This document shows, one piece after another, positions 9,207 through 42,640 of a stretch of 58,641 nucleotides of DNA. The stretch spans positions 1 to 58,641 of the forward strand of contig CAKZPT010000053.1 in NCBI GenBank assembly GCA_937139365.1. Reading direction: 5' to 3'. The first letter of the stretch is position 1. Every line of letters starts with the position of its first letter. The DNA comes from an uncultured bacterium (lineage in GTDB: Bacteria > Verrucomicrobiota > Kiritimatiellia > PWTM01). The translations under genes and the position numbers were made by a program. Under the pieces are notes generated by a model. The model was not told the DNA's origin. It was given only the letters and a program-made list of their open reading frames with translations, and ran no database searches.

Positions 9207-9449
9207 TCGGGCGCCCCTCAGGGGCGTACCGCATTTTCACGGCGCAAGTCCGGGCGATGGCCAAACGCGCGCGCGCCGCCTGAAGTGGGAGCGAGGGGTT
9301 GCTGTGCGGGCATCGAGGACCATCGCACATTGCCCCGGCCGCCGTGGCGCAGGACTATCGGCATGCGCCGGACCCGGCCATTCCGGCTGGGCTCGAATCC
9401 CCTTCTCCGTCCCGCGCGCCCCGGCTACGCGCTGGCGATCCTCCCACCG

Positions 9450-11704
9450 GGCGCCATGCGGTGGACGCGGCCGGGGGGCGAGATCGATGCGGCCATTGCC
9501 CTGCTGGAGGCGGAGGCCGAGCGCCAGCCCCAAACCCGCGAATCTGGAGAATCCTGGGGCTGCTCGACTGGCGAAAGGGGCGGCCCGATCGGGCGGAGGC
9601 GCGGTGGAAGCTGTTTCGCACGATGACGGGCGATCGCGCGACGCCCTCGGCATGGCTCGCCGAGCTGTACGCCGCGCATCACCGACTCGCCGAAGCGCTA
9701 ACCGAATACGACGCCGCCCGCGCCACCAATCCTGACGACCTCGAGCTGCAGTTTCAATGATCCCGCATCCGCCGCTGGATGGGCCACACGGCCGAGGCGG
9801 TGAACACGATGCGGACATCGTGCGCTGCCCATCCCGACCGCGACGACTTCCGTCGGGAGCTGCCCGCGGTCCTCTTCGCCAAGCGCGACTACGCCGAGGC
9901 CAGCCGCTGTGGGAGCAGGTCCGCGCCGCGCGACCGGGCGATCCCGACGCCGTCATCCGTGCCCTCGCCGCACGGATCCACGCCACCGGCGATCGGGAGG
10001 CCGTCGCCGAAGCCGAACGGTTTCTCGAAGAACACCCCAACCATACCATGACCCTCGGCTCGCTCATGGCGGCCGCGCGTGGACGGCGCGACTGGACGGC
10101 CGTCATCCGATACACACAACGGCTGATCGCGATCGAGCCTCGCCCCGCCGGCGCCGCCGTCTTCTGTACCAATGCGTGGAGATGCTTTTGCACCTCCACC
10201 GGCTCTCGCCCGGCCCGAGCGCGTTGGACGAGGCGCTGGACATGATCCGGATATCCGGCGAACGCGACGGCCGCGACGTGGACACGCTGCTGCTGTAGGC
10301 CGAGACAACCATCGAGGCCGGCCGCGTCGGCGATGCCCGCCCCCTGTTCGAGGAGGTCTTGCGCCGCCACCACCCTGCCCATCTGCGCGCGCTCCGGGGC
10401 CTCTTTGATGTCGCGGTGAGCGACCCGCGGTTTACGGAGGCCCGCGACCATCTGGACCGAATCCGAAGGTTCAACCCGCAGGCCCCCTACCTCGCGCACT
10501 GGGAGGCACGGTGCCTCGCCGCCCCAAAAAGGTACTCCGAAGCGCTGGCGGCCCTCGACCGGCTCGAGGCCGCCGGCGGTCGAGGTGCCGAGGCCGTGCT
10601 GCTGTACCACGGCCTCGGCGAAAGCGACTGGGGCGATGTCCCCTCCGTGAGACGGCTGCGGGAACACCTGACGGCCCTGCGCGACGCTGGCTATGGGTTG
10701 GTCGCGGCGCACGAGTTACCCGCCGTCCTCGGGAGTGCATCCCTGCCGTCCGGGCGGACGGGCTGCCGATCCGGATGGTCTGCGTGACCTTCGACGACGC
10801 ACGGTGAGATGCGATCCGGCACGGCGAAGCCGTCACCCGGGACCTCGGCGTGCCGATCACAATGCATGTGCCCCTCGGGTTTGTGTAAACGGGCCCTCCG
10901 TTCATTGCCTCCTGGGAGGAGACGGTCCGCGCCGCGTCGGAGGCGCCGTGGCGGTACGGCAGCCATGGCTTCGACGCCCACACGCTGGTGCCGACGGCGG
11001 TGGGCGGGGAGCCTGCCCCTCCGCTCGCCAACCGTCTGTGGCTTCCCGCCGAACGCCGTCTCGAGACGCCGGCCGAATACCGCGAGCGGTTGCGGATCGA
11101 CTACGGCCGCACCCGCGAACTCCTCGTCGCCCATTTTCGCAGCCCCGCCGACGCCAATGTGATCGCCTACCCGTTCGGGGACATCGGCCACCTCAGTGCC
11201 AACAACGTGGAGACGGCCTCGGTCGTCAACCTCGAAATCGCCGCCCGCTACTAGAAGGTCGGGTTCATCCAGAGCTTGTTCGGCCATGCAGTGCATCGCG
11301 ATTATCCCCTTCTCTACCAGCGCACCGAACCGAAGTTCGGGAAGGACGGCACCTCCCTAGTGGCCCGCCTGTTCGTCCACCACCCTGCGCTGTTCGCCCG
11401 GATCAAGAAGCTGGACATCGCGACGCCGGCCGCCAAACCCCACCTCGCCCGGGAGTTATTGGCCCGGCTGGGACGGCATGGGTGCCCGGAGTCAACGCTG
11501 CAGGAGCTTCGCACCCTGATCCGGTCCCGGCTCGGGGGCTCGGTGTTCGACTGGTTTCGGCCCGAGGCTCCCGCCCCGCCGCCGGCTGGACCGGACGACC
11601 CTGCCCTGCGACCCGACCGCCGGCTCGACGCGCCGCCCCCGCAACGAAGTTTGCCGCCCGAGGTCCCGCCGCCCCCCGACCTCTGGAGGCCTAATCCCGA
11701 GTGA
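9450..11704 (+). pseudogene. Decayed paralogue of the TPR/polysaccharide-deacetylase protein at 35.0-38.8 kb
   Basis: Translated pieces align in order with the intact protein at 35022-38786 but lie in changing frames. Frame breaks occur near 9535, 9905, 10145 and 10745. In-frame stops lie at 9758 (TGA), 10296 (TAG), 10805 (TGA), 10886 (TAA) and 11252 (TAG). The TPR part is recognisable from 9540 onward. ALDRLEAAGGRGAEAVLLYHG matches ALDRLEAAGEQGAVAVLLYHG of the intact copy. VTFDDAR, YGSHGFDAH, VIAYPFGDIG and VGFIQSLFGHAV match its deacetylase domain. The reading ends at 11704 in a Pro-rich tail without the beta-barrel, so the ancestor was either a shorter version or has lost its 3' end. I see no recognisable signal-peptide region upstream; 9207-9449 holds no gene. 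Confidence 0.85.
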
Positions 11705-30315: not shown

Positions 30316-33300
30316 ATGACGAACTTGGGGTCTGCCATGCGGTACGGGCCGGCACCGGTGGCGGCGGCCCTAACGGTTGTGTGGATGGCGGCGTGCACTG
30401 CCCCTCCGCCGGAGCCTGCGGGCCCTTTGCCCGAACCGGCGGCGTCCTACGGGATGGCGGCGTTCCGCCCCGAGGCGCCCCAAGTGCCGGACACCTTGTC
30501 CGGATCGACCGGCCTGGCCTTTCGGGCTGCGGCGTCCAACGAGGAGCCACGCACGGTTCAGGGGCGACGCGGAACGGCCGTAGCGATCGACCGTGGCTCG
30601 CTGTCCGGGCCTGCGCCGGCCGCGTTCTCCAATGGTTTCACGGCCGCACTCCTCGTGAAGATCCACGGGCAGGGCGGCATCCTTGGGAACAATGGCGCGT
30701 CGAACGGAACCATTATCGCGGTCGGCAGCGGCTACAGCGACGGGTGGCGACTGATCGCGGACACCGCGCGCTCAACCCTGTCGTTCGCGATCGGCCGGCC
30801 GACGCCGCCGTACTCGGCGACGGCCTCTGCCGGCCCACTCAACCTTTCCGGATGGCGGCACATCGCCGTAACGTGGGATCGCCGCCGGATGCGTCTGTGG
30901 CTCGACGGCCGCCCGGTGGCCGAACGCGCCATGGCGGAATCATATACGACACCGGCTGCAAACCTTCTCCGCATCGGCTACGCCGGCGCCGGCGTCGGAT
31001 CGCTCCGGCTGGATGTGGAGGAGGCAACGATCTGGGACCGGGCGTTGTCCCGCTCCGAGATCGCGCGCCTCGCGGCGGGAGAAATGGCGGCGCCGCGTTT
31101 GTGGGCCGAACGGGTCGACGAGGCCGACGAATGTCTTCTCGCCGGGGACGCTGACGGTGCCGTACAGGCGGCACGCGATGCGCTGCGCATTGTGGAACGC
31201 ACGCACCGGAGGTTGGCGGTGGCGACGGGTTGCTTGCTGATCGAAGCGGCCCGCAGGGCAGGCGACGGACGCACCGAAGTGATGGTCATGGCGGACCTTG
31301 CGGAGGCGCCCGATGCGGAGGAGGCGGATCGAGCCGCTGCGGCCGCCACGCTGGCCGAGGCACTGCGCGCCGGACGGGCGGCGGACCTCGCGCCGTCGGA
31401 ACTCGAGCGCTGTGTCCGGCTCGCCCGCCTTGCGGCCGCGGAACGCGAAGAGGGGAAACTATTGATCGTCTGGGCGCTGATGGATTCCGGCCACGTCAAG
31501 GAGGCGCGACGGCGTGTGGAGCCGTTGTGCGAATCCGCCGATCCCGTTCTGAAGAGCATGGCCCGCCTGACCCTTGCGCGCCTGGCCTTTGAGGCGGGGG
31601 AGTCGGAGGCGGGCCTGGCACGGTTGCGCGAGGTCGAAGCCCAGCCCGACGCTCCGCTCGCCCACCGGGACGAGGCCGCGCGGCTGCTCGCGTCCGGCGG
31701 GCCGCGTCCGCCTTCAGACCGTCTATCGCCCGCGCCTGTGTTTCCCGAACCGGGCGTGGAGTTCCACGTTTCTCCCGACGGCGATGATGCCAATCCGGGC
31801 AGCCGGGAACGTCCGTTCGCAACCCCGGCCAGGGCGCGGGACGCGCTGCGCGAATGGCGGGCGAAGCACCCCTGGCCCGCCGGCGGTGCCGCGATCACGC
31901 TGGCGCCGGGCCGCTACGCCATTCGCTCGACGCTCACGTTGGGTCCACAGGACTCCGGCCGTCCCGGCGCGCCCGTCGTGTGGCGCGCACGAGACCCAGC
32001 CCGGCCGCCGATGTTTGATGGAGGCGTCCGGCTGACGCCGCGGCCGGTCTCCGCCGCAGACCGCGACCGCCTGGCGCCCGAGTCACGTAAGGCCGCCGTC
32101 GAACTGGACCTGGCCGCGGCGGGGCTGACCAACCTCCCTCCGATGGCCCCGGGGGGGGTTGGATCCGGCCGCGGTTTCCGCACGCATCCTACGGTGGAGC
32201 TGTTCCTCGACGGGACCGCGCTCCCGCTGTCCCGCTGGCCCAACCATGGCTTCGCCGCCGTGGCGGCTATTCACGGAACCCAACGCACCAACCAACACGG
32301 TCGGACGATCTGCGTCGACGGGATCATTGCGTACGACAGCGATCGCCCCTCCCGCTGGATCGAAGAGCCGGCGCTATTGCTACACGGTTATTGGCATCAT
32401 CGCTGGGCCGAATCGTACGAGGTGGTTTCGTCCATCGATGCCGCCCGCCGCCGGATCGAGTTCGCTCGTCCCTGGCACACCTACGGGTACGCCTCGGGCG
32501 GCCTCTGGCGTGCCGTGAACGCGATCTCGGAGATCGACGAGCCGGGTGAGTGGGCCTTTGATCCCGTTCGGCGTCGCATCATCGTTCGCCCGCCGGCCGA
32601 GGTCCCTGCCGGAGCCGAATGGGTCGTCCCAGGCTGGTTCGATCCGTTCCTGAAGGCCGATAACGTCACTCACCTCGCAATGGTCGGCCTGGTGTGGCAA
32701 TACGGAGGGGCAGATGCCCTCCTGCTTCAAGCCGCAACCAATTGCGTGCTGGTCGGTTGCACGATTCGCCATTTCGCGGGCGATGCGCTTCGAGTGGACG
32801 GTGGATGTTCTAACCTCGTGCGCTCGTGCGACATCCACAGCCTCGGCCGGGGTGGCGTGTACGTCTCGGGCGGCGACCGGCGGACGCTTCAGCCGGGCGG
32901 ACACTGCGTCGAAAACTGTCACATTCACCATCTGTCCCGACTGAACCCCACCTACACGCCGGCCGTCGCAGCGTCCGGGGTCGGCCATCGCATCGCGCAC
33001 AACTTGGTTCACGACGTCCCCAGCAGCGCATTTCGGCTCGCCGGCAACGATCATCTCGTGGAAATGAACGAGGTGTTCGAAGTCGTCACCGAATCCGACG
33101 ATCAGGGCGGCACCGACATGTGGGGCGACCCTTTCTTTCGTGGAAATCGCTTTCTTCACAACTACTGGCATCACATCGGCGATCGCCCCGGGGCCAACAT
33201 GACGGCACATGTGGGGCGCGCCGCAATCCGGCTCGACGACGCGATCAGCGGCACCGTCATCCGGGGCAACGTGTTCCTTCGCTGCGGCTCGGGCCAGAGC

Positions 33301-33789
33301 TGGCGCGGCGCCGTCCAAATCCATGGGGGCAAGGACAACGAGGTGGACGGCAACGTCGTCGCCCTGGGACCGGCCGCGGTCAGCTTTACGCCCTGGCCCG
33401 AGCCGAAATGGCAGGAGCACATAGCAGAAAAGAACTGGCGGAGGGACATCGATCTGGATCTTTACGCTCGCCGCTATCCCGTGATGGGCGACCTCGCCGC
33501 CCATCCCAACCGGAACCTGCTGTCGCGCAACTGGGTCTGGCGTTGCGAGAGGCTGACGATCAACAACGCCAGCTGGTCGCGAATCGCACCCCAAACGGCG
33601 ACGGCCCGGCACGACACGCCCTTTGTCGCGCCGGAGCGGGGCGATTTTCGCCTGCGCAAGGGCGCGCGCCCGCCGGCTTGCCTCGGTCCGGAGCCGATTC
33701 CTTTTGAGTTCATTGGGTTGCGTCCGGACCCGTATCGGGCGGTCCTGCCCGACGAGGCGGTGCGAGCCGCGCGGGCCAGGGTGCCGTGA
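30316..33789 (+). CDS. Lipoprotein with LamG-like and right-handed beta-helix domains
   Basis: This 1157-residue protein starts with a signal peptide and a lipobox-like site, VVWMAACTAPP (Cys27). A LamG/concanavalin-like domain follows at about residues 45-235 (ATIWDRALSRSEIARLAAGE). Next is an Ala/Glu/Arg-rich helical region at about 240-470 that resembles TPR-type repeats. From about 475 there is a pectate-lyase-like beta-helix that opens with FHVSPDGDDANPGSRERPFAT and a PGRYAIRSTL strand. Its coils contain repeated N/H/G-rich turns (TNCVLVGCTIRHFAGDALRVDG, HNYWHHIGD, IRGNVFLRCG). The architecture suits a surface-bound glycan-processing or binding protein in PVC bacteria; catalysis is not proven. 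It starts at 30316 or at 30337. Its 3' end overlaps rsmD by 80 bp. Confidence 0.82.
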   Translation: MTNLGSAMRYGPAPVAAALTVVWMAACTAPPPEPAGPLPEPAASYGMAAFRPEAPQVPDTLSGSTGLAFRAAASNEEPRTVQGRRGTAVAIDRGSLSGPAPAAFSNGFTAALLVKIHGQGGILGNNGASNGTIIAVGSGYSDGWRLIADTARSTLSFAIGRPTPPYSATASAGPLNLSGWRHIAVTWDRRRMRLWLDGRPVAERAMAESYTTPAANLLRIGYAGAGVGSLRLDVEEATIWDRALSRSEIARLAAGEMAAPRLWAERVDEADECLLAGDADGAVQAARDALRIVERTHRRLAVATGCLLIEAARRAGDGRTEVMVMADLAEAPDAEEADRAAAAATLAEALRAGRAADLAPSELERCVRLARLAAAEREEGKLLIVWALMDSGHVKEARRRVEPLCESADPVLKSMARLTLARLAFEAGESEAGLARLREVEAQPDAPLAHRDEAARLLASGGPRPPSDRLSPAPVFPEPGVEFHVSPDGDDANPGSRERPFATPARARDALREWRAKHPWPAGGAAITLAPGRYAIRSTLTLGPQDSGRPGAPVVWRARDPARPPMFDGGVRLTPRPVSAADRDRLAPESRKAAVELDLAAAGLTNLPPMAPGGVGSGRGFRTHPTVELFLDGTALPLSRWPNHGFAAVAAIHGTQRTNQHGRTICVDGIIAYDSDRPSRWIEEPALLLHGYWHHRWAESYEVVSSIDAARRRIEFARPWHTYGYASGGLWRAVNAISEIDEPGEWAFDPVRRRIIVRPPAEVPAGAEWVVPGWFDPFLKADNVTHLAMVGLVWQYGGADALLLQAATNCVLVGCTIRHFAGDALRVDGGCSNLVRSCDIHSLGRGGVYVSGGDRRTLQPGGHCVENCHIHHLSRLNPTYTPAVAASGVGHRIAHNLVHDVPSSAFRLAGNDHLVEMNEVFEVVTESDDQGGTDMWGDPFFRGNRFLHNYWHHIGDRPGANMTAHVGRAAIRLDDAISGTVIRGNVFLRCGSGQSWRGAVQIHGGKDNEVDGNVVALGPAAVSFTPWPEPKWQEHIAEKNWRRDIDLDLYARRYPVMGDLAAHPNRNLLSRNWVWRCERLTINNASWSRIAPQTATARHDTPFVAPERGDFRLRKGARPPACLGPEPIPFEFIGLRPDPYRAVLPDEAVRAARARVP

Positions 33790-34390
33790 AGGCTGTCCAG
33801 GCCAGCGCGCGCCGCCGGCGATAGAGGATCCAGCGGCCGTCTCCGCTGACACGGTCACGGAGGGCCTCCCACCCAGGACCGAGCGCAGCGGCGTCAGGTG
33901 GCGGCACGCGTACGGACTGCTCCCAGACGAGAAGGGCGTCGTCCGTCAGGGCATCCGCCCCGGCGAGGGCCGCCGCGAGGGTTGGCAGCGCCAGCGGGTC
34001 GCGGCTCCACTCGTAGGGGGGATCGGCAAACACGAGGGAGAAGGGGCCCTCCGACGCATACCGGCGCGGATGGGTGGCGTCGGCCTGGATCACCACTGCG
34101 CCGCTCGGCATGCGGCCGCCGCCCAGTTCCGCGAGGTTACGTCGAAGGATCCGGCACGCCTCGCCATTGTCGTCCACCCAGCAGACGAACGCCGCTCCGC
34201 GGCTGAACGCCTCCAGTCCGTAGGCGCCGGTGCCGGCGAACAGATCCAGCACGTGCGCGCCGACCACGGCGTCGCCGAGGGAGGAGAACACCGCCGTGCG
34301 CAGCCGTTCCTGTGTCGGCCGAAGTCCGGTTTTCGGCACGGCGATTCGCCGTCCGCCCCACCGGCCGCCGGAGATGCGGATCAGGCCCAT
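33710..34390 (-). CDS. rsmD: 16S rRNA (guanine966-N2)-methyltransferase RsmD
   Basis: This SAM-dependent methyltransferase modifies G966 of 16S rRNA. It opens with GLIRISGGRWGGRRIAVPK, followed by LRPTQERLRTAVFSSLGD. The SAM motif is VLDLFAGTGAYGLEAFSRGAA, and the catalytic motif is SLVFADPPYEW (DPPY). The 226-residue length is somewhat longer than typical because of a low-complexity tail (APWPARLAPPRRAGPPDT). That tail is encoded entirely on the antisense of the 3' end of the beta-helix gene, an 80-bp convergent overlap. I chose the start at MGLIRISG, since upstream in-frame sequence has no homology. It overlaps the GGDEF gene upstream by 10 bp, so the two are likely cotranscribed. Confidence 0.93.
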   Translation of the reverse strand: MGLIRISGGRWGGRRIAVPKTGLRPTQERLRTAVFSSLGDAVVGAHVLDLFAGTGAYGLEAFSRGAAFVCWVDDNGEACRILRRNLAELGGGRMPSGAVVIQADATHPRRYASEGPFSLVFADPPYEWSRDPLALPTLAAALAGADALTDDALLVWEQSVRVPPPDAAALGPGWEALRDRVSGDGRWILYRRRRALAWTAFTAPWPARLAPPRRAGPPDTGPDATQ

Positions 34391-34932
34391 GACCAGCGCA
34401 CCTGGCCCCCGCCGGCCGACTTGGCCCGCCGTAACGCACGATGGGCTGCCTCGACCAGTGTCGTCCAGCCGCGCGGGGCTGCCCCAGGGCGAACCGTTGC
34501 CACACCGGCGGACACCCGAACCGGCGTCCGCCGGGCACCGGCGGCTGCCACCGCCGCCGCCGCGACCAGTCGCGCCTCGCTGACGGAGCCGGTCCAGGGC
34601 ACAAGGAATTCGTCGCCGCCGAGCCGCACGAGCGGCCGGCTCGGCCCCAGCGCGGTTCGGATCGCCCTCGCAACCGAGATTAGGCAACGGTCGCCGGCCG
34701 CGTACCCACGGCGGTCATTGACCCGGCGCAAACCGTCCAAGTCCAGTAGGATTACCACCACGTCCTTGCGCGGCCGGCCGCGCGCGGCCAGCCAGCGCCG
34801 GTTGAAGGCGCCGGTCAGCGGGTCGCGCATGGCGGCCCGCCGCCACCGAAGGGTGGCCGCCTCCTCGGGTCGCCGGGCGCGCGGTATAGGCATATAGTTC
34901 CTGACACTAACGGCGGCGCGAGACCGTGACAA
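34381..34932 (-). CDS. Small GGDEF-domain protein, probable diguanylate cyclase
   Basis: This 183-residue protein is little more than one GGDEF domain. It contains RDPLTGAFNRRW, the metal-binding LLDLDGLRRVNDRRGYAAGD, and the active-site loop VRLGGDEFLVPW, all intact. It should therefore make cyclic di-GMP from GTP. The I-site, an RxxD placed five residues before GGDEF, is absent: the position reads GPSR. Feedback inhibition may therefore be lost. No sensor domain is attached; the N-terminal 40 residues are basic. It is divergent from the exopolysaccharide-type fusion gene at 35.0 kb, which makes a link between cyclic di-GMP and polysaccharide export possible but unproven. Confidence 0.85.
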   Translation of the reverse strand: MSRSRAAVSVRNYMPIPRARRPEEAATLRWRRAAMRDPLTGAFNRRWLAARGRPRKDVVVILLDLDGLRRVNDRRGYAAGDRCLISVARAIRTALGPSRPLVRLGGDEFLVPWTGSVSEARLVAAAAVAAAGARRTPVRVSAGVATVRPGAAPRGWTTLVEAAHRALRRAKSAGGGQVRWSWA

Positions 34933-35021
34933 TCCGTTCCACGTCGAGCATGTTGGTTCAAGGCCGCACTATGAGCCGCGCGTGCGAGGGCCCGGCAAGA
35001 GGCTCCGGAGGGGAGGTTCCA

Positions 35022-38000
35022 TTGAGGGCGCACGGCAATGAGCCCGTTGGACGGTGGTATGCCCGCCGCATCCGCAGTGGGCTATTGCTTCTGGCGGCGG
35101 CTCTGTGGGCGATGTCGGGCGGCGCGGAAGAACGGCGGGACGGTGAGCCGACGATCCGCCGACGCCCGTCGCGGGGACCGGCCGCGGCCGCCGGGAAGCC
35201 GTCGGCAGACCCGGTGCGGCCCTCGACAACCGCCGCCGCGCCCAGCGCTGCGTCGGGACCAGCGGCCACGGCCGTGCCGACGCCGCTCGTGCCGGCTGCG
35301 GCGGCTCCCGGTTTTTCTTCCTCCCCTGCGACGCCTCCTGCCATCGCCGATGCGGCTCCTACGCCCCCTGCGGCCACCGCCGCACCGTCGGCCGTCGTGA
35401 CCGCAAACGTGCCGGCCGCCGCGGCGGGCGGCTTGCCGGGCTCGCTGTTCGTCCAGCTCTTCGGCGACTCCCCTCCGGCGACCGCCGCCGCGACGTCCGC
35501 ACCGCCGCTGATCCGGCGCGCGCCGCGGATGACGCGCCTCGAGCCGGAGACACCGATCGTGCCGGTTCCATCGGGCGTCTCCCAGCGACTCGAGGAGGCG
35601 ATTCTTCTCGCGCGGGAGAAGAAACACGACGCCGCGATCCCGATCCTCGCGGACATTCTCCAACAGGACCCCACCCAGATGGCGGCCTGGGAGCAACTGG
35701 GCTGGAGCTACTGGGCGATGGGCCGCCGGGCCGACGCGATCGCGCTGTGGAACCAGTTGCTGGCCCTCGATCCGCGCAACGCACGGGCCTATGCCTGGCT
35801 GGCCCGCGCCGCCACGGCGGAAAACGACCTCGCCAAGGCGGTCGAGTACAACCGGAAGAGCCTTGAGTTGGCCCCAAACGACTTCGCCGTGAAGTACGAC
35901 CTGGCGCGCACGTTGCTGTGGAAGGGCGATATCGACGAGGCCCTGCCAATGCTGGAGAAGCTCCTCGCGGAGGATCCGAACCGGCTGGACGTGGCCGCCG
36001 AACTCGCGCGCGCGCTGACCTTCGCCTGGCAGTTCGACAGCGCCCTGCCCCTCTGGCAACGGGTGCGGCAGTCGGCGCCGGACGACGTGACCTTCATGGC
36101 GATGGAGGCCCTTTGCCGGCTGCACACCAACGACGCCGAGGGGGCAAGGGAACTGGCCACGCGGGTGCTGGACGCGGTCCCGGACGACGTGACGGCGCTC
36201 GACGTGATGGCGTCGTTGGCCGAGTTCGGAGGCTCGCCGGTGGATGCGCTGCCCCACCTCCGCAAGCTTAAGAACGTCGCCCCGACGGCCCAGGAGCGGG
36301 AGCGCTACCGGGTGCGGCTGCTGCGGCTGCTCGTCCGGCTTCACCGGGCGGAGCCGCGCGTGTACGGCTTGAAAGAGGCGATCGACCTCTGCCGGGAGCG
36401 CCGCGACGAGCTTCCGTTCTCCACGGACGCCCGTCTGATGCTCGGCGAGTTGTTGTTGATGGATGGCCAGCTGGCCGAGGCCGAGCGGCAGTTCATCGGG
36501 GTGTTGCGCGACCGCAACCCGCACAACATCCGCGCACGGCGCGGCCTGCTGGAGGTCTACCTGGCGGCGAAAGAATACGATCGGGCGCGCGAACAGCTAG
36601 CGGCGATCAGCCGGTTCAACCCGCAGGATCCCTACCTCTTCTACCACCTGGCCCGGCTGGAAGCCACGCGCGGAGACTTCTACAAGGCCCACCAGGCCCT
36701 CGACCGCCTCGAGGCGGCCGGCGAGCAGGGGGCCGTGGCGGTCCTGCTCTACCACGGCATTCTGCAGAGCCGATATTTCCCCGACGCAATTTCGGTGGAC
36801 CGGTTTCGCGAGCACATGATCGCACTTCAGAAGGCCCGCGTCCGGTTCGTTCGGCACAGCGAGTTGGCCGCCTCGCTCGGGCGCTCCACGGCGGCCACCA
36901 ACGCCGCCGGCGTGCGGCCGGTCCTGATGGGCCCCGGTTTCGCCCGGCCGGCCGGTGGCCAACGGCCGTTGACCGTCTCGATCAGCTTCGACGACGCGCG
37001 CCGTGACTCCATGTTCCACGGCACCCGTGTGGCGAAGGAGCTGGGCCTGGTCTTCTCGATGCACGTCCCTTGCGGGTACATCCAGCGCAGCCATCCGTTC
37101 ATTTGCTCATGGGAACAGCTACGTACCTACGCGGCGGAAGGTTGCTGGGAATACGGCGGCCATATGCTCGACGGCGCGATCCTCGCCGCGGTGGACTCCA
37201 CCGGCCGGGAGTGGCATGCGCTGCCGAACCGGATCTGGCGGGCCGACCTCCAGCGCATGGAGACCGTTGCGGAGTACGAGGAGCGGCTCGCCCGCGAGTT
37301 CAGCGAGAGCCGCCGGATCCTCCGGGAACAGCTCGGCGGGCCCGTCAACTTCGTTGCCTATCCCTTCGGCGACATCGGCCAGGAGGACGAGACCAACGTG
37401 GACGACCCCGTTGCCCGCATCCTCGTCCACGCGCGCCGTCACTTCGAGATCGGCTTCATCCAGAGCGTGTTTGGCTACGCCATTGCCGGCGACGACCCCC
37501 TGCTCTACCAGCGCCACGAGATGGACCGTTCGATGAGCGGCGACGACGTCGTCGACTATTTGTACGACCACCATCCGGTCTTCCTCGCCCGCCGCCTGCG
37601 CGCCGAATACCGCGCCCTCGAGGGCAAGCTCTACGCCGCCCGCGAGACCGTGCGGCAACTGGAGGCGGACGGCTACCCCGAACGCCCGCTTGCCCGCCTG
37701 AGCAAGTACGTCGAGGACCGTCTCGCCCGCACGTTCGCCGCGCCGGCCGAAGGGCCGGGGACGATCCGAAAGGCTCCGTGGGCCGTCGAGCTGCGCAAGC
37801 CCTACGCTGGCGCGGACGGCGAATTCTCCCGCGACAACCAGGACCGCGAAAGCGGCCGCGTCTTCGGACTGGCCGGCCTCAACCTCACCCCGAACCTCGT
37901 CCTCGAGGGCCGCGCCGGCATTGGCTACCTACGGCAGGACGTCGTCGAGGCCGTGACCAACGCGGTCCGGCAGGGACGCCGGACCATCCTGCAACCCGGC

Positions 38001-38786
38001 ACCCGGACCTACGGCGTTGACATCGACGAGCGGGACGTCGGCGGACGTGCCATGTTCACGTTCCCGAACGGCATCTACCTTGCCGGCGACCTCCTTCAGC
38101 GCTCCTTCAGCGGGGATGTGGATCGCGACCGGAGGATGTGGGCGCTCGAAGGCCAGGCCCGCCCCGTCCCGCCGCTCGACGTGCTGCTGCGGGTCGAACA
38201 CGACATGGCGCCGTCGGCCCTCGCCGTCGCCGAGGACATCTCCTACACGATGCTGATGGGATGGGCGCACCTGCGCATCACCGACCCGTGGACCGCGCTC
38301 CTCTCCCTGACGCGGTACGACTTCAGCGACGACAACGTCCGCGACCACTTCGCGCTGGGCACCTCGCTGCTGCTCCACGAGCGCACCGGGTTTCGGCTGG
38401 GCGTTCGGGCGTCGTACGACACGTCGGACTTCGATAGCCGCGCCTATTGGACCCCTCTCCATCTCCAGCGCTACGCGCTCGAGGCGGCGTTCCAGGGGAC
38501 TTACCTGCGAACCTACTACAACGCCCGCCTGCGGCTCGGCATCGGCAAGGAGGATGCATGGCCGGAGGAAGAAGAACGCTATCGCCAAACGGTCGCTCGG
38601 GCGGCGCGGCTGCGCTTCGACCCCGGCCCTCCGCCCGAGGACGGCTGGGAGCCAGTGATCGGCCTCATGCTCGCGGTACGGCACCGCATCGGCGAGCATT
38701 GGATCTTCAACGGCGAACTCTCCTACAACCGCAACCCGAACTACAACGAGCTATCCTTGCTCGGCGGCCTGCGGTACCGCTTCTGA
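35022..38786 (+). CDS. Secreted TPR - polysaccharide deacetylase - outer-membrane barrel fusion (PgaA/PgaB-like)
   Basis: This 1254-residue protein starts at TTG 35022, which has a strong GGAGGGGAGG ribosome site (35007-35016) five bases upstream and leads into a signal peptide (RSGLLLLAAALWAMSGGA). An Ala/Pro-rich linker fills residues 36-185. TPR-like repeats span about 186-567. A PgaB/IcaB-like deacetylase domain spans about 571-840. It opens with VAVLLYHGIL, then ISFDDARRDS (Asp657/Asp658), YGGHMLDGA (His714), ALPNRIW and VAYPFGDIG (Pro781). From about 913 to the end, alternating polar/aromatic strands finish with LLGGLRYRF, a typical outer-membrane C-terminus. In PNAG systems these functions are split between PgaA (TPR plus barrel) and PgaB (deacetylase). 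The second zinc histidine expected at 719 is alanine. It lies 9 nt before an MBOAT gene and is divergent from the GGDEF gene. Confidence 0.85.
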   Translation: MRAHGNEPVGRWYARRIRSGLLLLAAALWAMSGGAEERRDGEPTIRRRPSRGPAAAAGKPSADPVRPSTTAAAPSAASGPAATAVPTPLVPAAAAPGFSSSPATPPAIADAAPTPPAATAAPSAVVTANVPAAAAGGLPGSLFVQLFGDSPPATAAATSAPPLIRRAPRMTRLEPETPIVPVPSGVSQRLEEAILLAREKKHDAAIPILADILQQDPTQMAAWEQLGWSYWAMGRRADAIALWNQLLALDPRNARAYAWLARAATAENDLAKAVEYNRKSLELAPNDFAVKYDLARTLLWKGDIDEALPMLEKLLAEDPNRLDVAAELARALTFAWQFDSALPLWQRVRQSAPDDVTFMAMEALCRLHTNDAEGARELATRVLDAVPDDVTALDVMASLAEFGGSPVDALPHLRKLKNVAPTAQERERYRVRLLRLLVRLHRAEPRVYGLKEAIDLCRERRDELPFSTDARLMLGELLLMDGQLAEAERQFIGVLRDRNPHNIRARRGLLEVYLAAKEYDRAREQLAAISRFNPQDPYLFYHLARLEATRGDFYKAHQALDRLEAAGEQGAVAVLLYHGILQSRYFPDAISVDRFREHMIALQKARVRFVRHSELAASLGRSTAATNAAGVRPVLMGPGFARPAGGQRPLTVSISFDDARRDSMFHGTRVAKELGLVFSMHVPCGYIQRSHPFICSWEQLRTYAAEGCWEYGGHMLDGAILAAVDSTGREWHALPNRIWRADLQRMETVAEYEERLAREFSESRRILREQLGGPVNFVAYPFGDIGQEDETNVDDPVARILVHARRHFEIGFIQSVFGYAIAGDDPLLYQRHEMDRSMSGDDVVDYLYDHHPVFLARRLRAEYRALEGKLYAARETVRQLEADGYPERPLARLSKYVEDRLARTFAAPAEGPGTIRKAPWAVELRKPYAGADGEFSRDNQDRESGRVFGLAGLNLTPNLVLEGRAGIGYLRQDVVEAVTNAVRQGRRTILQPGTRTYGVDIDERDVGGRAMFTFPNGIYLAGDLLQRSFSGDVDRDRRMWALEGQARPVPPLDVLLRVEHDMAPSALAVAEDISYTMLMGWAHLRITDPWTALLSLTRYDFSDDNVRDHFALGTSLLLHERTGFRLGVRASYDTSDFDSRAYWTPLHLQRYALEAAFQGTYLRTYYNARLRLGIGKEDAWPEEEERYRQTVARAARLRFDPGPPPEDGWEPVIGLMLAVRHRIGEHWIFNGELSYNRNPNYNELSLLGGLRYRF

Positions 38787-38795
38787 CGGCTGCCG

Positions 38796-40217
38796 ATGTT
38801 GTTCCCGACGATCCTCTTCGCTGTTTTTTTCGGGCTGGTCTATGCGTTACAGTGGGCCATGGCGAGCCGTCCGGAGCTCCGCAAACGGTTCCTCCTGGTC
38901 GCCAGCTACGTCTTCTACGGTGCTTGGGACTGGCAGTTTCTGGGCCTGCTGGCCGCCTCCTCGCTGGTCAACCACGCCGCTGCCCTGGCCCTGGCTCGAC
39001 GAGAGCCGGATCGCCGCCCGGCGCTGCTGGCCCTTGCCGTCGCCTTTAACCTCGGCCTGCTCGGTTTTTTCAAGTACTACGGCTTCCTCTACGTCAACGC
39101 GGCGGGGCTGTGCGGCCGCCTGGGTGCACCCTGTCCCCTCCCGCCGCTGGACATCGTACTGCCGGTCGGGATCTCGTTTTTCACCTTCCAAGCGCTGAGC
39201 TACGTGCTCGACGTCGCTCGGGGGCAGTTGGCCCCGGCTGAGTCGTGGCTCGATTTTGCGCTGTACCTGGCCTTTTTCCCGCAGCTGGTCGCCGGCCCGA
39301 TCGTCCGCGCCGCCGAGCTCTTTCCGCAGATCGCCCGTCCGCCGCGGCCCGAACGGCTGCCGACCGGCCGCGCCACCGTCCTGATCTTGGCCGGCCTGTT
39401 CAAGAAGGTCGTCGTCGCCAACTGGCTCGCCTCGGAGCTGGTGGACCCCGTCTACGACAACCCCGAGCTCTTTGGCCGCTGGGACGCGTTGCTGGCCGTG
39501 TACGGTTACGCAGTCCAGCTCTACTGCGATTTCTCCGCTTACTCCGACATCGCGATCGGTGTCGGCCTGCTGCTCGGGTTTCGTCTGCCGAACAACTTCG
39601 ACGCGCCGTACCTCGCCTCCACCGTCCAGGAATTCTGGCGGCGCTGGCACATCTCGCTATCCACTTGGCTGCGCGACTACGTCTACGTTCCGCTCGGCGG
39701 CTCGCGCGGGCCGGGATGGCGGACGTCGGCCAACCTCGTCTTGACCTTTCTGCTGGGCGGCCTCTGGCACGGCGCGGGCTGGAACTTCGTTTTCTGGGGT
39801 CTGCTGCACGGCGTGTACTTGGCCATCGAGCGCGCCGTGTGGGCCCGCCGCGGCGGGGCCGCGAAGGCCGCCGCGACGCGCTCGCCGGCCGTGCGCCTGG
39901 CGCTGGCGTTGTTGACGTTCCACCTCGTCGGGCTGACCTACGTTTTTTTCCGCGCGCCCTCGTTCGGGGACGCCGGCCTCCTCCTGCGGGCGCTGCTGAC
40001 CCCGGCGTCGTCGACCCGGTTCACGCCAGCGCTGGCGGCGGTCCTCGCGGCGGGCTTTGCGTTGCAGTGGCTCGACGGCGGCCGCTCGCTCCGCCTAGCC
40101 GCGGGATGGCAGCGGCAACCCGTCTGGCTGCAGGGCGCGGCTGCGGCAGCCGCCGTGGCCGCGATCTTCGCGCTCGGCCCCCGGGGCGTGGCGCCGTTTA
40201 TTTACTTCCAGTTCTGA
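38796..40217 (+). CDS. MBOAT-family O-acyltransferase (AlgI-like)
   Basis: This 473-residue multi-pass inner-membrane protein belongs to the membrane-bound O-acyltransferase family that, like AlgI, moves acetyl groups across the membrane for O-acetylation of a polysaccharide. Family segments include RFLLVASYVFYGAWDWQF, DIVLPVGISFFTFQALSYVLD and FFPQLVAGPIVRAAELFPQI. The central CDFSAYSDIAIGVGLLLGF, FWRRWHISLSTWLRDYVYVPLGG and GGLWHGAGWNF follow; the histidine at residue 325 in LWHGA is the catalytic position. It starts 9 nt after the deacetylase/barrel fusion stop, in one apparent operon, which suggests that the exported glycan is also O-acylated. The following small gene overlaps its stop by 1 bp (TGATG). 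Confidence 0.95.
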   Translation: MLFPTILFAVFFGLVYALQWAMASRPELRKRFLLVASYVFYGAWDWQFLGLLAASSLVNHAAALALARREPDRRPALLALAVAFNLGLLGFFKYYGFLYVNAAGLCGRLGAPCPLPPLDIVLPVGISFFTFQALSYVLDVARGQLAPAESWLDFALYLAFFPQLVAGPIVRAAELFPQIARPPRPERLPTGRATVLILAGLFKKVVVANWLASELVDPVYDNPELFGRWDALLAVYGYAVQLYCDFSAYSDIAIGVGLLLGFRLPNNFDAPYLASTVQEFWRRWHISLSTWLRDYVYVPLGGSRGPGWRTSANLVLTFLLGGLWHGAGWNFVFWGLLHGVYLAIERAVWARRGGAAKAAATRSPAVRLALALLTFHLVGLTYVFFRAPSFGDAGLLLRALLTPASSTRFTPALAAVLAAGFALQWLDGGRSLRLAAGWQRQPVWLQGAAAAAAVAAIFALGPRGVAPFIYFQF

Positions 40218-40543
40218 TGCGCGCCTCCCCTCCATTCGCCATCACCCCGGAACCCGGCCTGGACCGGCGTCGAACGCATCTTCTGATCGCCGTGTTCTAC
40301 GCCACCGCCGCCCTGCTCGGCGGCCCGCGCCTCGAACGCGCTGCCAGCCACCTCGAATACGGGCACCCGCTGCGGCCGACCGCCCTCGCCGCCGCCCGTC
40401 CCCTCGCCGAAGTGGCCCGCGCGGTAGGCCTCGACCGCCCCCTCGCCGCGCTCGAGGCGTGGGTCGATCGCATCCGCTCCGCCGGCAGCGGCCCCGCCGC
40501 CCCGCCCTCCGCCCCGCTTGCCCCGCCCGACCCGGCGCCGTAG
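40217..40543 (+). CDS. Small membrane-anchored protein coupled to the MBOAT gene
   Basis: This 108-residue protein has one hydrophobic segment (HLLIAVFYATAALLGGP). A short extracytoplasmic part follows (ERAASHLEYGHPLRPTALAAARPLAEVARAVGLDRPLAALEAWVD), then a Pro/Ala tail. Its ATG overlaps the MBOAT stop, so translation is coupled. MBOAT acyltransferases usually work with an SGNH-type partner (AlgJ/AlgX-like or DUF459-like), whose N-terminus has this layout of a membrane anchor followed by a Leu-Arg-Pro region. The catalytic part is missing here, so this may be a truncated partner or a small dedicated subunit. I do not recognise an exact family. Confidence 0.55.
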   Translation: MRASPPFAITPEPGLDRRRTHLLIAVFYATAALLGGPRLERAASHLEYGHPLRPTALAAARPLAEVARAVGLDRPLAALEAWVDRIRSAGSGPAAPPSAPLAPPDPAP

Positions 40544-40584
40544 CATCCCCCCCGTCCTCCACAGGACACTCCGAACCGACGACG

Positions 40585-41664
40585 ATGGAACCGCCCGTCC
40601 TTCCGCCGTGGGAACAGTTCAGGGCCGCGCGGCCCGCCGAGAAGGCGCGCTGGCTTCGCACCCCGACCGGCCGCCCCTACCACGTCCTCTTCGCCCAGCA
40701 GTTCGACCGTCCCTTTCTCGACCGCCTGTGCGAAACCGCCACCCGTACCCGCCGCATCGCCAAGACGAAAGGCGGCCGCATGTTCCTCCAGAGCCTGCTG
40801 CCAGACCAGCGCGCGATGCTCTATTTCGCGCAGCCCTCGACCCGCACCTTTCTCTCCTTCTACACCGCCTGCCAGATCGTCGGACTGCGCCCGGCCGAGG
40901 TCCGCGACACGCACACCTCCAGCGAGTTCAAGGGCGAGTCGCCCGAGGACTCCGTGCGCACCTTCAGTTCCTACGTGGACCTGATCATCATGCGGCATCC
41001 CGAGCAGGGCTTCGCCGAGCGCATCGCATGGCTGTTGTCCACCACCGAGCGCTCCGTGCCCGTCATCAACGCCGGGTCCGGCAAGGACGAGCACCCCACC
41101 CAGGCCCTGTTGGACGTCTACACCCTCCAGCGCAGCTTCGCGCGCCGCGGCGGCATCGAGGGGAAGACCGTCGTCTTTGTCGGCGACCTGCTCCGCGGCC
41201 GGACCGTCCGGTCGCTCGCGCAGGTGCTCGTCCTCTACCCCGGCGTCCGGCTGATCTTCTGCGCCCCGGCACCGCTTCAGATCGCCGACGACATCCTCGA
41301 GGTGCTGCGGACCGCCGGCGTTCCCCACGAGACCACCGAGGACTTCGAATACGCCGTGGCCGCCGCGGACGCGGTCTACATGACGCGGCTACAGGACGAG
41401 TGGGACGTCGCCGGCGAAAGCCGCCAGATCCCGACCGAGCGCTTCCGCTTCGAAGAACGTCACCTGCAGCTGCTGCGGCCCGACGGCATCGTGATGCACC
41501 CGCTGCCGCGCCGCCACGAGATCGCCGTCGAGGTGGACCGCGACCCGCGGGCGATGTACTGGCGGCAGGTGCGCAACGGCATGTGGATCCGCGTCGCGCT
41601 GATCCTCACCATGTTCGGCCGCGAGGGCGAGATCCACCAGTACTACGAGGAGCTGGTCCGCTGA
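40585..41664 (+). CDS. pyrB: Aspartate carbamoyltransferase
   Basis: ATCase condenses carbamoyl phosphate with aspartate in pyrimidine synthesis. The 359-residue protein has the carbamoyl-phosphate loop YFAQPSTRTFLSF, the motif KDEHPTQALLDVYTL, the domain linker KTVVFVGDLLRGRTVRSLAQVL and the aspartate-binding VYMTRLQDE. It ends with HPLPRRHEIAVEVDRDPRAMYWRQ, a block specific to ATCases. It is longer than E. coli PyrB by about 50 residues at the N-terminus, which contains GRPYHVLFAQQFDRPFLDRL. No pyrI is adjacent. It ends 28 bp before argF, so two carbamoyltransferases with different pathways share an operon. Confidence 0.93.
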   Translation: MEPPVLPPWEQFRAARPAEKARWLRTPTGRPYHVLFAQQFDRPFLDRLCETATRTRRIAKTKGGRMFLQSLLPDQRAMLYFAQPSTRTFLSFYTACQIVGLRPAEVRDTHTSSEFKGESPEDSVRTFSSYVDLIIMRHPEQGFAERIAWLLSTTERSVPVINAGSGKDEHPTQALLDVYTLQRSFARRGGIEGKTVVFVGDLLRGRTVRSLAQVLVLYPGVRLIFCAPAPLQIADDILEVLRTAGVPHETTEDFEYAVAAADAVYMTRLQDEWDVAGESRQIPTERFRFEERHLQLLRPDGIVMHPLPRRHEIAVEVDRDPRAMYWRQVRNGMWIRVALILTMFGREGEIHQYYEELVR

Positions 41665-41692
41665 CGCCTCCGCGGGGCGCACCCTCGCCGCC

Positions 41693-42640
41693 ATGAAGGA
41701 CCTGGTGTCCATCGCCCAATGGAGCGCCGCCCGGATCCGGCGCCTGCTCGACCTCGCCCTGGACGTGAAGCGCCACTCCGGCCGGTACCGCGACGCGATG
41801 CGCGACCGCACGCTCGTGATGCTCTTCGAGAAACCCAGCCTGCGCACACGCGTCTCGTTCGAGGCGGCGATGACGCAGATGGGGGGACACGCGATCTACT
41901 ACGACCTCGGCTCCTCCCCCCTCGGCCGCGGCAAGGAAAGCGTCGAGGACACCGCCCGCGTCCTCAGCCGCTATGCCGACGCCATCATGGCGCGCATGTT
42001 CCGCCACGCCGACATCGTCGCGCTGGCCCGCCACTCCGGCGTTCCCGTCATCAACGGCCTGACGAACGACGAACACCCGACCCAGATCCTCGCCGACCTC
42101 CTGACCATCCTCGAACGGAAGGGGCGCCTCGACGGGTTGACTCTGGCCTACGTGGGCGACGGCCTGAACAACGTCACGCACTCCCTGATGCTGGGCGTCG
42201 CGCGGCTGGGACTGCACATGCGCATCGGCTGCCCCGACGAGGCCGCCTACCGCCCCGATCCCGCCGTCGTGCGGCGGGCCGCTCGCCTCGCCCGGGCCTC
42301 CGGCGCGCGGATCGACATCGTCGCCGACGCCCGAGAGGCCGTGCGCGGCGCCGACGTCGTCTACACCGACTCTTGGATGTCCTACCACATTCCCGAGGAG
42401 CAAAAGGCGGAGCGCATGGCGCGGTTTTTGCCCTACCAGGTCAATTCCGCATTGATGCGCCGCGCCCGCCGTTCTGCCATCTTTCTGCACTGCCTCCCTG
42501 CCGTCCGCGGCTGCGAAGTCACCGACGAGGTCATCGACGGCCCGCGGTCCGCCGTCTTCGACGAGGCCGAGAACCGTCTGCACATCCACAAGGCCCTGCT
42601 GCTGCACCTCGTCGCCGGCGTCCCGGCCCCGCGTGCGTGA
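41693..42640 (+). CDS. argF: Ornithine carbamoyltransferase (with atypical SMG loop)
   Basis: This enzyme makes citrulline from ornithine and carbamoyl phosphate in arginine synthesis. Visible blocks are MLFEKPSLRTRVSFEAAM, the carbamoyl-phosphate loop in the SLRTR variant, and NDEHPTQILADLLTI. The domain-linker strand LAYVGDGLNNVTHSLMLGVA and the active-site HCLPA (His266-Cys267) follow. At the usual D-x3-SMG ornithine-binding loop the sequence reads DSWMSYHIPEEQ (Asp226, Ser230, Tyr231, His232). The methionine and glycine are thus replaced, and the specificity could differ. The 315-residue length is normal. The start follows pyrB by 28 bp; both genes probably depend on the same promoter. 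Confidence 0.88.
   Translation: MKDLVSIAQWSAARIRRLLDLALDVKRHSGRYRDAMRDRTLVMLFEKPSLRTRVSFEAAMTQMGGHAIYYDLGSSPLGRGKESVEDTARVLSRYADAIMARMFRHADIVALARHSGVPVINGLTNDEHPTQILADLLTILERKGRLDGLTLAYVGDGLNNVTHSLMLGVARLGLHMRIGCPDEAAYRPDPAVVRRAARLARASGARIDIVADAREAVRGADVVYTDSWMSYHIPEEQKAERMARFLPYQVNSALMRRARRSAIFLHCLPAVRGCEVTDEVIDGPRSAVFDEAENRLHIHKALLLHLVAGVPAPRA

Follow-up and report, generated by a model that had tools for sequence, protein, structure and literature searches.

The locus described here raises the question of whether the pore and the deacetylase of an exopolysaccharide system can be carried by a single protein, and what the deacetylase domain would do there. We analyzed a 58,641-nt contig from an uncultured bacterium of the Kiritimatiellia (CAKZPT010000053.1, assembly GCA_937139365.1), referred to below as the window, which is the entire contig; the assembly (genome G000) comprises 2.82 Mb. 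Positions 35022-38786 of the forward strand encode a 1254-residue protein, the fusion exporter, which consists of a signal peptide, a Pro/Ala-rich linker, a tetratricopeptide repeat (TPR) superhelix, a carbohydrate esterase family 4 (CE4/NodB) domain, a helical segment and a 16-stranded beta-barrel. According to the structure models, the chain follows the plan of PgaA, but with a PgaB-like domain set between the TPRs and the barrel, and so is a natural PgaA-PgaB fusion. From the computed evidence (domain content, folds, linkage and co-occurrence of genes, the loss of one metal ligand, and broken genes), we estimate a probability of about 0.78 that a synthase-dependent exopolysaccharide system of the Pga/poly-N-acetylglucosamine (PNAG) kind, present in part of the Kiritimatiellia, uses this protein as its export subunit in the outer membrane, and that the protein's own CE4 domain mostly holds the polymer.

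Domain order and fold of the exporter

The exporter open reading frame (ORF) starts with TTG. A GGAGGGGAGG ribosome-binding site at 35007-35016 lies 5 nt ahead of this codon and supports TTG 35022 as the start; a longer ORF is possible from GTG 34926. The dN/dS (ratio of nonsynonymous to synonymous substitution rates) against the relative in genome G007 was ∼0.24, indicating purifying selection, and the downstream MBOAT gene gave ∼0.25.

Pfam TPRs were found at residues ∼190-570, and the superhelix was assigned to residues 186-570 (35577-36728, forward strand, as are all exporter features). It is followed by a PgaB/IcaB-type CE4 domain of NodB fold at residues 571-833 (36732-37520), which was recognized by Pfam, NCBIfam, profile alignment and fold. 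Polysacc_deac_1 matched residues 650-786 with a score exactly equal to the Pfam gathering score, and the NCBIfam PgaB segment matched residues 682-788 (E=3e-8). The motifs FDDA (656-659), GGH (712-714), NRIW and YPFG (780-783) are present, and the alignment of the exporter family hidden Markov model with Escherichia coli PgaB spans the first three. When the PDB was searched with a profile, the top five matches were all PgaB or IcaB-type deacetylases.

The alignment of 27 family members over residues 571-1254 was used for an AlphaFold2 model (mean predicted local distance difference test score, pLDDT, 87.2; predicted template modeling score, pTM, 0.74). It contains a NodB-like domain, helices and then 16 strands at residues 928-1253 (37803-38780). 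In a second model, of residues 186-1254 (pLDDT 88.8, pTM 0.80), the deacetylase domain is preceded by 22 helices of the TPR region and followed by four further helices, at residues ∼840-902 (37539-37727). No TPR sequence match was found in these four helices, which are possibly a terminal TPR-like segment. Foldseek with the 571-1254 model gave E. coli PgaB (4f9d) at rank 1 (3e-13), the PgaA barrel (4y25) at rank 5 (5e-12) and BcsC (6tzk) at rank 10 (5e-11), and the barrel likeness also extends to PelB; the 186-1254 model matched mainly generic TPR structures. The assignment of a PgaA-like barrel is based on fold, because the sequence similarity to PgaA is marginal to very weak. The barrel family PF21197 weakly matched three of the 27 family members and did not match the window's exporter. 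An identity as a PEP-CTERM/PrsT protein was also considered and rejected, since the high TPR score reflected repeat similarity and was far under the cut-off. No Cys was found by eye after the signal peptide, as a PgaB-like lipoprotein anchor would require, and no PgaB glycoside hydrolase domain was found C-terminal to the CE4 domain, where the model has helices and barrel. The reading of TPRs, deacetylase and barrel in one chain, made in the initial annotation from the letters of the window, was thus borne out by Pfam and NCBIfam domains, by the fold (NodB-type at 571-840, barrel at the C-terminus) and by the 27 alignable sequences.

Our sampling covered 289 genomes of a single phylum. The deacetylase-barrel query matched in 29 of them; some weak matches were to the deacetylase domain alone, and the full fusion is present in most of the 29. 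Independent genomes encode the same architecture at identities as low as 25%. A scan of genome contigs yielded only two close relatives. An exporter relative with 71% identity lies on CAACVY010000027 of the single-cell genome AH-151-A22, published as a Kiritimatiellaeota genome (PMC6424206), which would place the window in the Kiritimatiellia as well. A check for plasmid presence did not find the exporter family on plasmids. At locus L049 (G107:C21, 6450-17096, reverse strand) the fusion occurs in three tandem copies, two of which have mostly lost the MT1 and MT2 residues.

Metal site of the CE4 domain

We compared the metal-site region (36990-37178) with E. coli PgaB and 35 homologues. Residue D657 is the catalytic Asp, equivalent to D114 of PgaB, and is kept. 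PgaB residues D115, H184 and H189 correspond to D658, H714 and A719 in the window exporter, which leaves the metal triad incomplete; H189 is reportedly the third metal ligand of PgaB (structure work of Little et al., 2012). The metal in PgaB is coordinated by D115 and H184 (PMC13366581).

Trimming of the polymer at the pore entrance by an active N-deacetylase domain would be in keeping with the NodB fold, with the retention of D657, of two metal ligands (an Asp and a His) and of the YPFG motif, and with the full triad seen in four barrel-fused relatives. We nevertheless consider it rather unlikely, judging from sequence, that the window's CE4 domain is active, because A719 replaces H189 and because of the triad pattern across members: it is complete in all six barrel-less paralogues vs. 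four of the 30 barrel-fused members, and incomplete in the other 26 (36 sequences; Fisher p=1e-4, uncorrected for relatedness). The H189 equivalent is also missing in the window's nearest relatives (G007, L035, G145 and G107). The initial proposal that this protein deacetylates the polymer at the pore was therefore not supported for the window copy, in which the H189 position is Ala.

In the tree, the barrel-less paralogues form a single clade (89/73) within the barrel-fused tree, beside the clade of the window. Given this nesting, loss of the barrel in this group probably postdates the fusion, with the metal site retained. A second deacetylase-like protein, encoded on the synthase side, has lost the metal site in all 12 alignable copies (a 13th could not be aligned), with D115 replaced by H or Q, H184 by E or Q and H189 mostly by F. 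With somewhat less than even confidence, we suggest a lineage-wide exporter-deacetylase fusion whose enzyme domain, located at the pore, repeatedly lost its metal site and became a polymer-holding element; catalysis would have stayed with the barrel-less duplicate, and the second protein beside the synthase would be uniformly without a metal site.

Partner genes and broken loci

Clustering of neighboring genes and family searches defined a conserved set: a family 2 glycosyltransferase (GT2), a PgaB-like/TPR protein of 1300-1700 residues (the second deacetylase-like protein), an MBOAT O-acyltransferase, a small single-helix protein, an SGNH/DUF459 protein, the exporter, and a regulatory trio of a receiver domain protein, a KaiC-like ATPase and an AAA ATPase resembling TIGR03015. 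The exporter gene is clustered with those of the GT2, the second deacetylase-like protein, the MBOAT and the SGNH protein in G213 (from the window's family), G210, G231, G223, G065, G090, G023 and others; in G213, G210, G231, G223 and some others, the small protein also belongs to this cluster. The GT2 was found in 27 of the 29 genomes with an exporter match and in just six others, and the second deacetylase-like protein in 25 genomes, all within the 29 (counts uncorrected for relatedness). Neighbors from an unrelated pathway had been named as grounds against an exopolysaccharide role; the relatives instead have synthase, SGNH and MBOAT genes nearby, which supports the export role and the probable O-acylation. 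The description as a compact machine was overstated, as about six structural genes plus regulators make up the full system.

The best family matches of the GT2 were to the NodC and PgaC models. NodC scored above PgaC, and the linkage of the polymer may be beta-1,4 or beta-1,6. The nearest structures to the GT2 by sequence are hyaluronan synthases, and the barrel resembles BcsC and PelB as well as PgaA; taken with the degeneration of both fused deacetylase-like domains in most members, this would suit export of a cellulose-like or hyaluronan-like polymer free of N-acetylglucosamine (GlcNAc), with the deacetylase-like domains as sugar-binding relics. We regard such a polymer as unlikely, in view of the NodC and PgaC models at the top of the GT2 family matches, the PNAG deacetylases as closest profile matches of the exporter and the existence of triad-complete barrel-less paralogues. 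The GT2 at L042 (5892-7421, forward strand) carries N-terminal CxC/CxxC pairs, zinc-ribbon-like, ahead of its first membrane helix. Members of the second deacetylase-like family (e.g., L042 7364-11374, forward strand) have an N-terminal hydrophobic segment, a PgaB-like domain lacking the metal ligands, and TPRs. An origin of the 1300-1500-residue paralogues by GT2-deacetylase fusion was rejected: those scanned with Pfam and NCBIfam had no GT2 domain, with TPRs and the N-terminal hydrophobic segment instead.

As the initial annotation had pointed out, an AlgI/DltB-like MBOAT gene begins 9 nt downstream of the exporter (38796-40217, forward strand; PF03062, E=7e-30), with the conserved His aligned to that of DltB. 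The ORF of a 108-residue single-helix protein (40217-40543, forward strand) overlaps its stop codon, and homologues of this protein adjoin the MBOAT in many genomes, usually between MBOAT and SGNH/DUF459. The SGNH protein is a DUF459 member with similarity to PatB; in G000 it is encoded on a separate contig (C57) and carries GDS and DGIH motifs. Both halves of an O-acetylation pair, an MBOAT with its conserved His and a periplasmic SGNH protein with catalytic motifs, are therefore present, and since MBOAT/SGNH pairs are known, we infer a role in O-acylation. The MBOAT, the small protein and the SGNH protein could instead serve PatA/PatB-like O-acetylation of the cell wall as mere neighbors of the exporter, and the match of the SGNH protein to the PatB model, its location on another contig in G000 and the several MBOATs per genome in these genomes would agree with that. 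We give this only a small chance, as MBOAT and SGNH/DUF459 genes each adjoin the exporter gene in 18 genomes, which belong to several families and often have the GT2 there too.

On the other side of the exporter, a GGDEF diguanylate cyclase domain protein is encoded divergently (34381-34932, reverse strand; PF00990, E=1e-20), as it is beside the exporter in G007 and G020 (L045 and L044). The regulatory trio, which sits in the exporter cluster in relatives, was found in the window's genome near an MBOAT gene at L037 (G000:C3, 12282-14407, forward strand; receiver, KaiC-like and TIGR03015-like AAA). A GHL10-like glycoside hydrolase protein at L060 (9527-11833, reverse strand) lies within the cluster and might stand in for the missing PgaB hydrolase domain. 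Upstream of the exporter, positions 30316-33789 (forward strand) encode a 1157-residue protein that combines a Laminin-G-like domain with a right-handed beta-helix region, and directly downstream there are two adjoining carbamoyltransferase-like genes (40459-42640, forward strand; by eye, of aspartate and ornithine type).

The statement that the synthase is absent holds for the window and fails for the genome, in which a GT2 gene, apparently broken, was found on contig C15. There (L083, 1998-7486, forward strand), the GT2 is interrupted by two in-frame stops, shows a DSD to DSH change at the apparent DxD motif, and is followed by its partner protein with two frameshifts; both genes are intact in the neighbors G007 and G020. 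A barrel-less TPR-deacetylase paralogue in the window (9338-11557, forward strand) is likewise broken by frameshifts and three in-frame stops, and is intact in G007, G020 and G213. Polysacc_deac_1 was found in the window's genome only in the exporter, the C15 partner and this paralogue, and of these genes and the GT2 the exporter alone is intact. Either the pathway was lost recently in this genome, or C15 and the window may contain assembly errors. Such broken loci in the same assembly could raise the suspicion that the fusion is itself a chimera or a chance long ORF, which is refuted by its recurrence at down to 25% identity in independent genomes, by the 27 alignable sequences and by the high-confidence fold.

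A proposed export path and its relation to known systems

In the pathway that we favor, the membrane GT2 synthase would extrude a GlcNAc-type polymer, assisted by the membrane-anchored PgaB-like/TPR protein without a metal site. The chain would then pass through the TPR groove of the exporter and its CE4 cleft into its own barrel, and would be O-acylated by the MBOAT, the small membrane protein and the periplasmic SGNH protein. The window's CE4 domain would most likely serve to hold or guide the polymer at the pore mouth and not deacetylate it well; deacetylation would more likely be carried out by the triad-complete barrel-less paralogue, which in the window's genome is broken, as is the synthase. 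In E. coli, the deacetylase domain of PgaB was reported to be more active when bound by the PgaA TPRs nearest the outer membrane (PMC9384988). In the fusion a PgaB-type domain is joined at the corresponding place, which provides independent support for that arrangement.

Several points weigh against this proposal. The exporter falls below the NCBIfam cut-offs for PgaA and PgaB (64 of 367 bits for TIGR03939), the sampling is confined to the one phylum, and the higher score of NodC (beta-1,4) over PgaC (beta-1,6) bears on the polymer identity, which is based on homology. Metal binding or slow catalysis might still be possible at a CE4 site short of one His ligand. If the breaks are biological and the synthase no longer functions at all, the exporter, although intact, may have a different function or may be newly freed from selection.

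The periplasmic arrangement of exporter and modifying enzyme in synthase-dependent polysaccharide systems has so far been assembled from parts studied separately; the natural fusion fixes it and makes both available to structural studies in a single chain. The triad-complete barrel-less copies and the triad-poor barrel copies make a non-catalytic role of PgaB-type domains directly testable, and the gene cluster is a concrete candidate for the production of an O-acylated amino-sugar matrix in Kiritimatiellia.

Like E. coli PgaA (4y25), the window exporter has TPRs followed by a C-terminal barrel of 16 strands, and a diguanylate cyclase gene alongside, comparable to dgcT beside pgaA; unlike PgaA, it has a PgaB-type domain between the two. 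Its CE4 domain shares with PgaB and IcaB the NodB fold, the D114, D115 and H184 equivalents and the YPFG motif, and differs from E. coli PgaB in the Ala at H189, the lack of a glycoside hydrolase domain and lipoprotein Cys, and the fusion to TPRs and barrel. TPRs with an outer-membrane barrel are also the plan of the BcsC and PelB exporters, neither of which is known to contain a deacetylase domain; PelA is a separate protein. The MBOAT and SGNH pair resembles AlgI/AlgJ/AlgX of the alginate system and PatA/PatB, from which it differs by the extra single-helix protein and by a polymer that is likely an amino-sugar one. We found no description of a PgaA-PgaB fusion in the open-access literature, which is weak evidence of absence, and none in the passages of PMC7112194 that we read. 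The fusions in synthase-dependent operons given there include BcsZC, BcsAB and GT-PgaB (Bundalovic-Torma et al., 2020; PMC7112194). The window exporter is like BcsZC in joining a modification enzyme to the outer-membrane pore, and like GT-PgaB in carrying a PgaB domain within a fusion.

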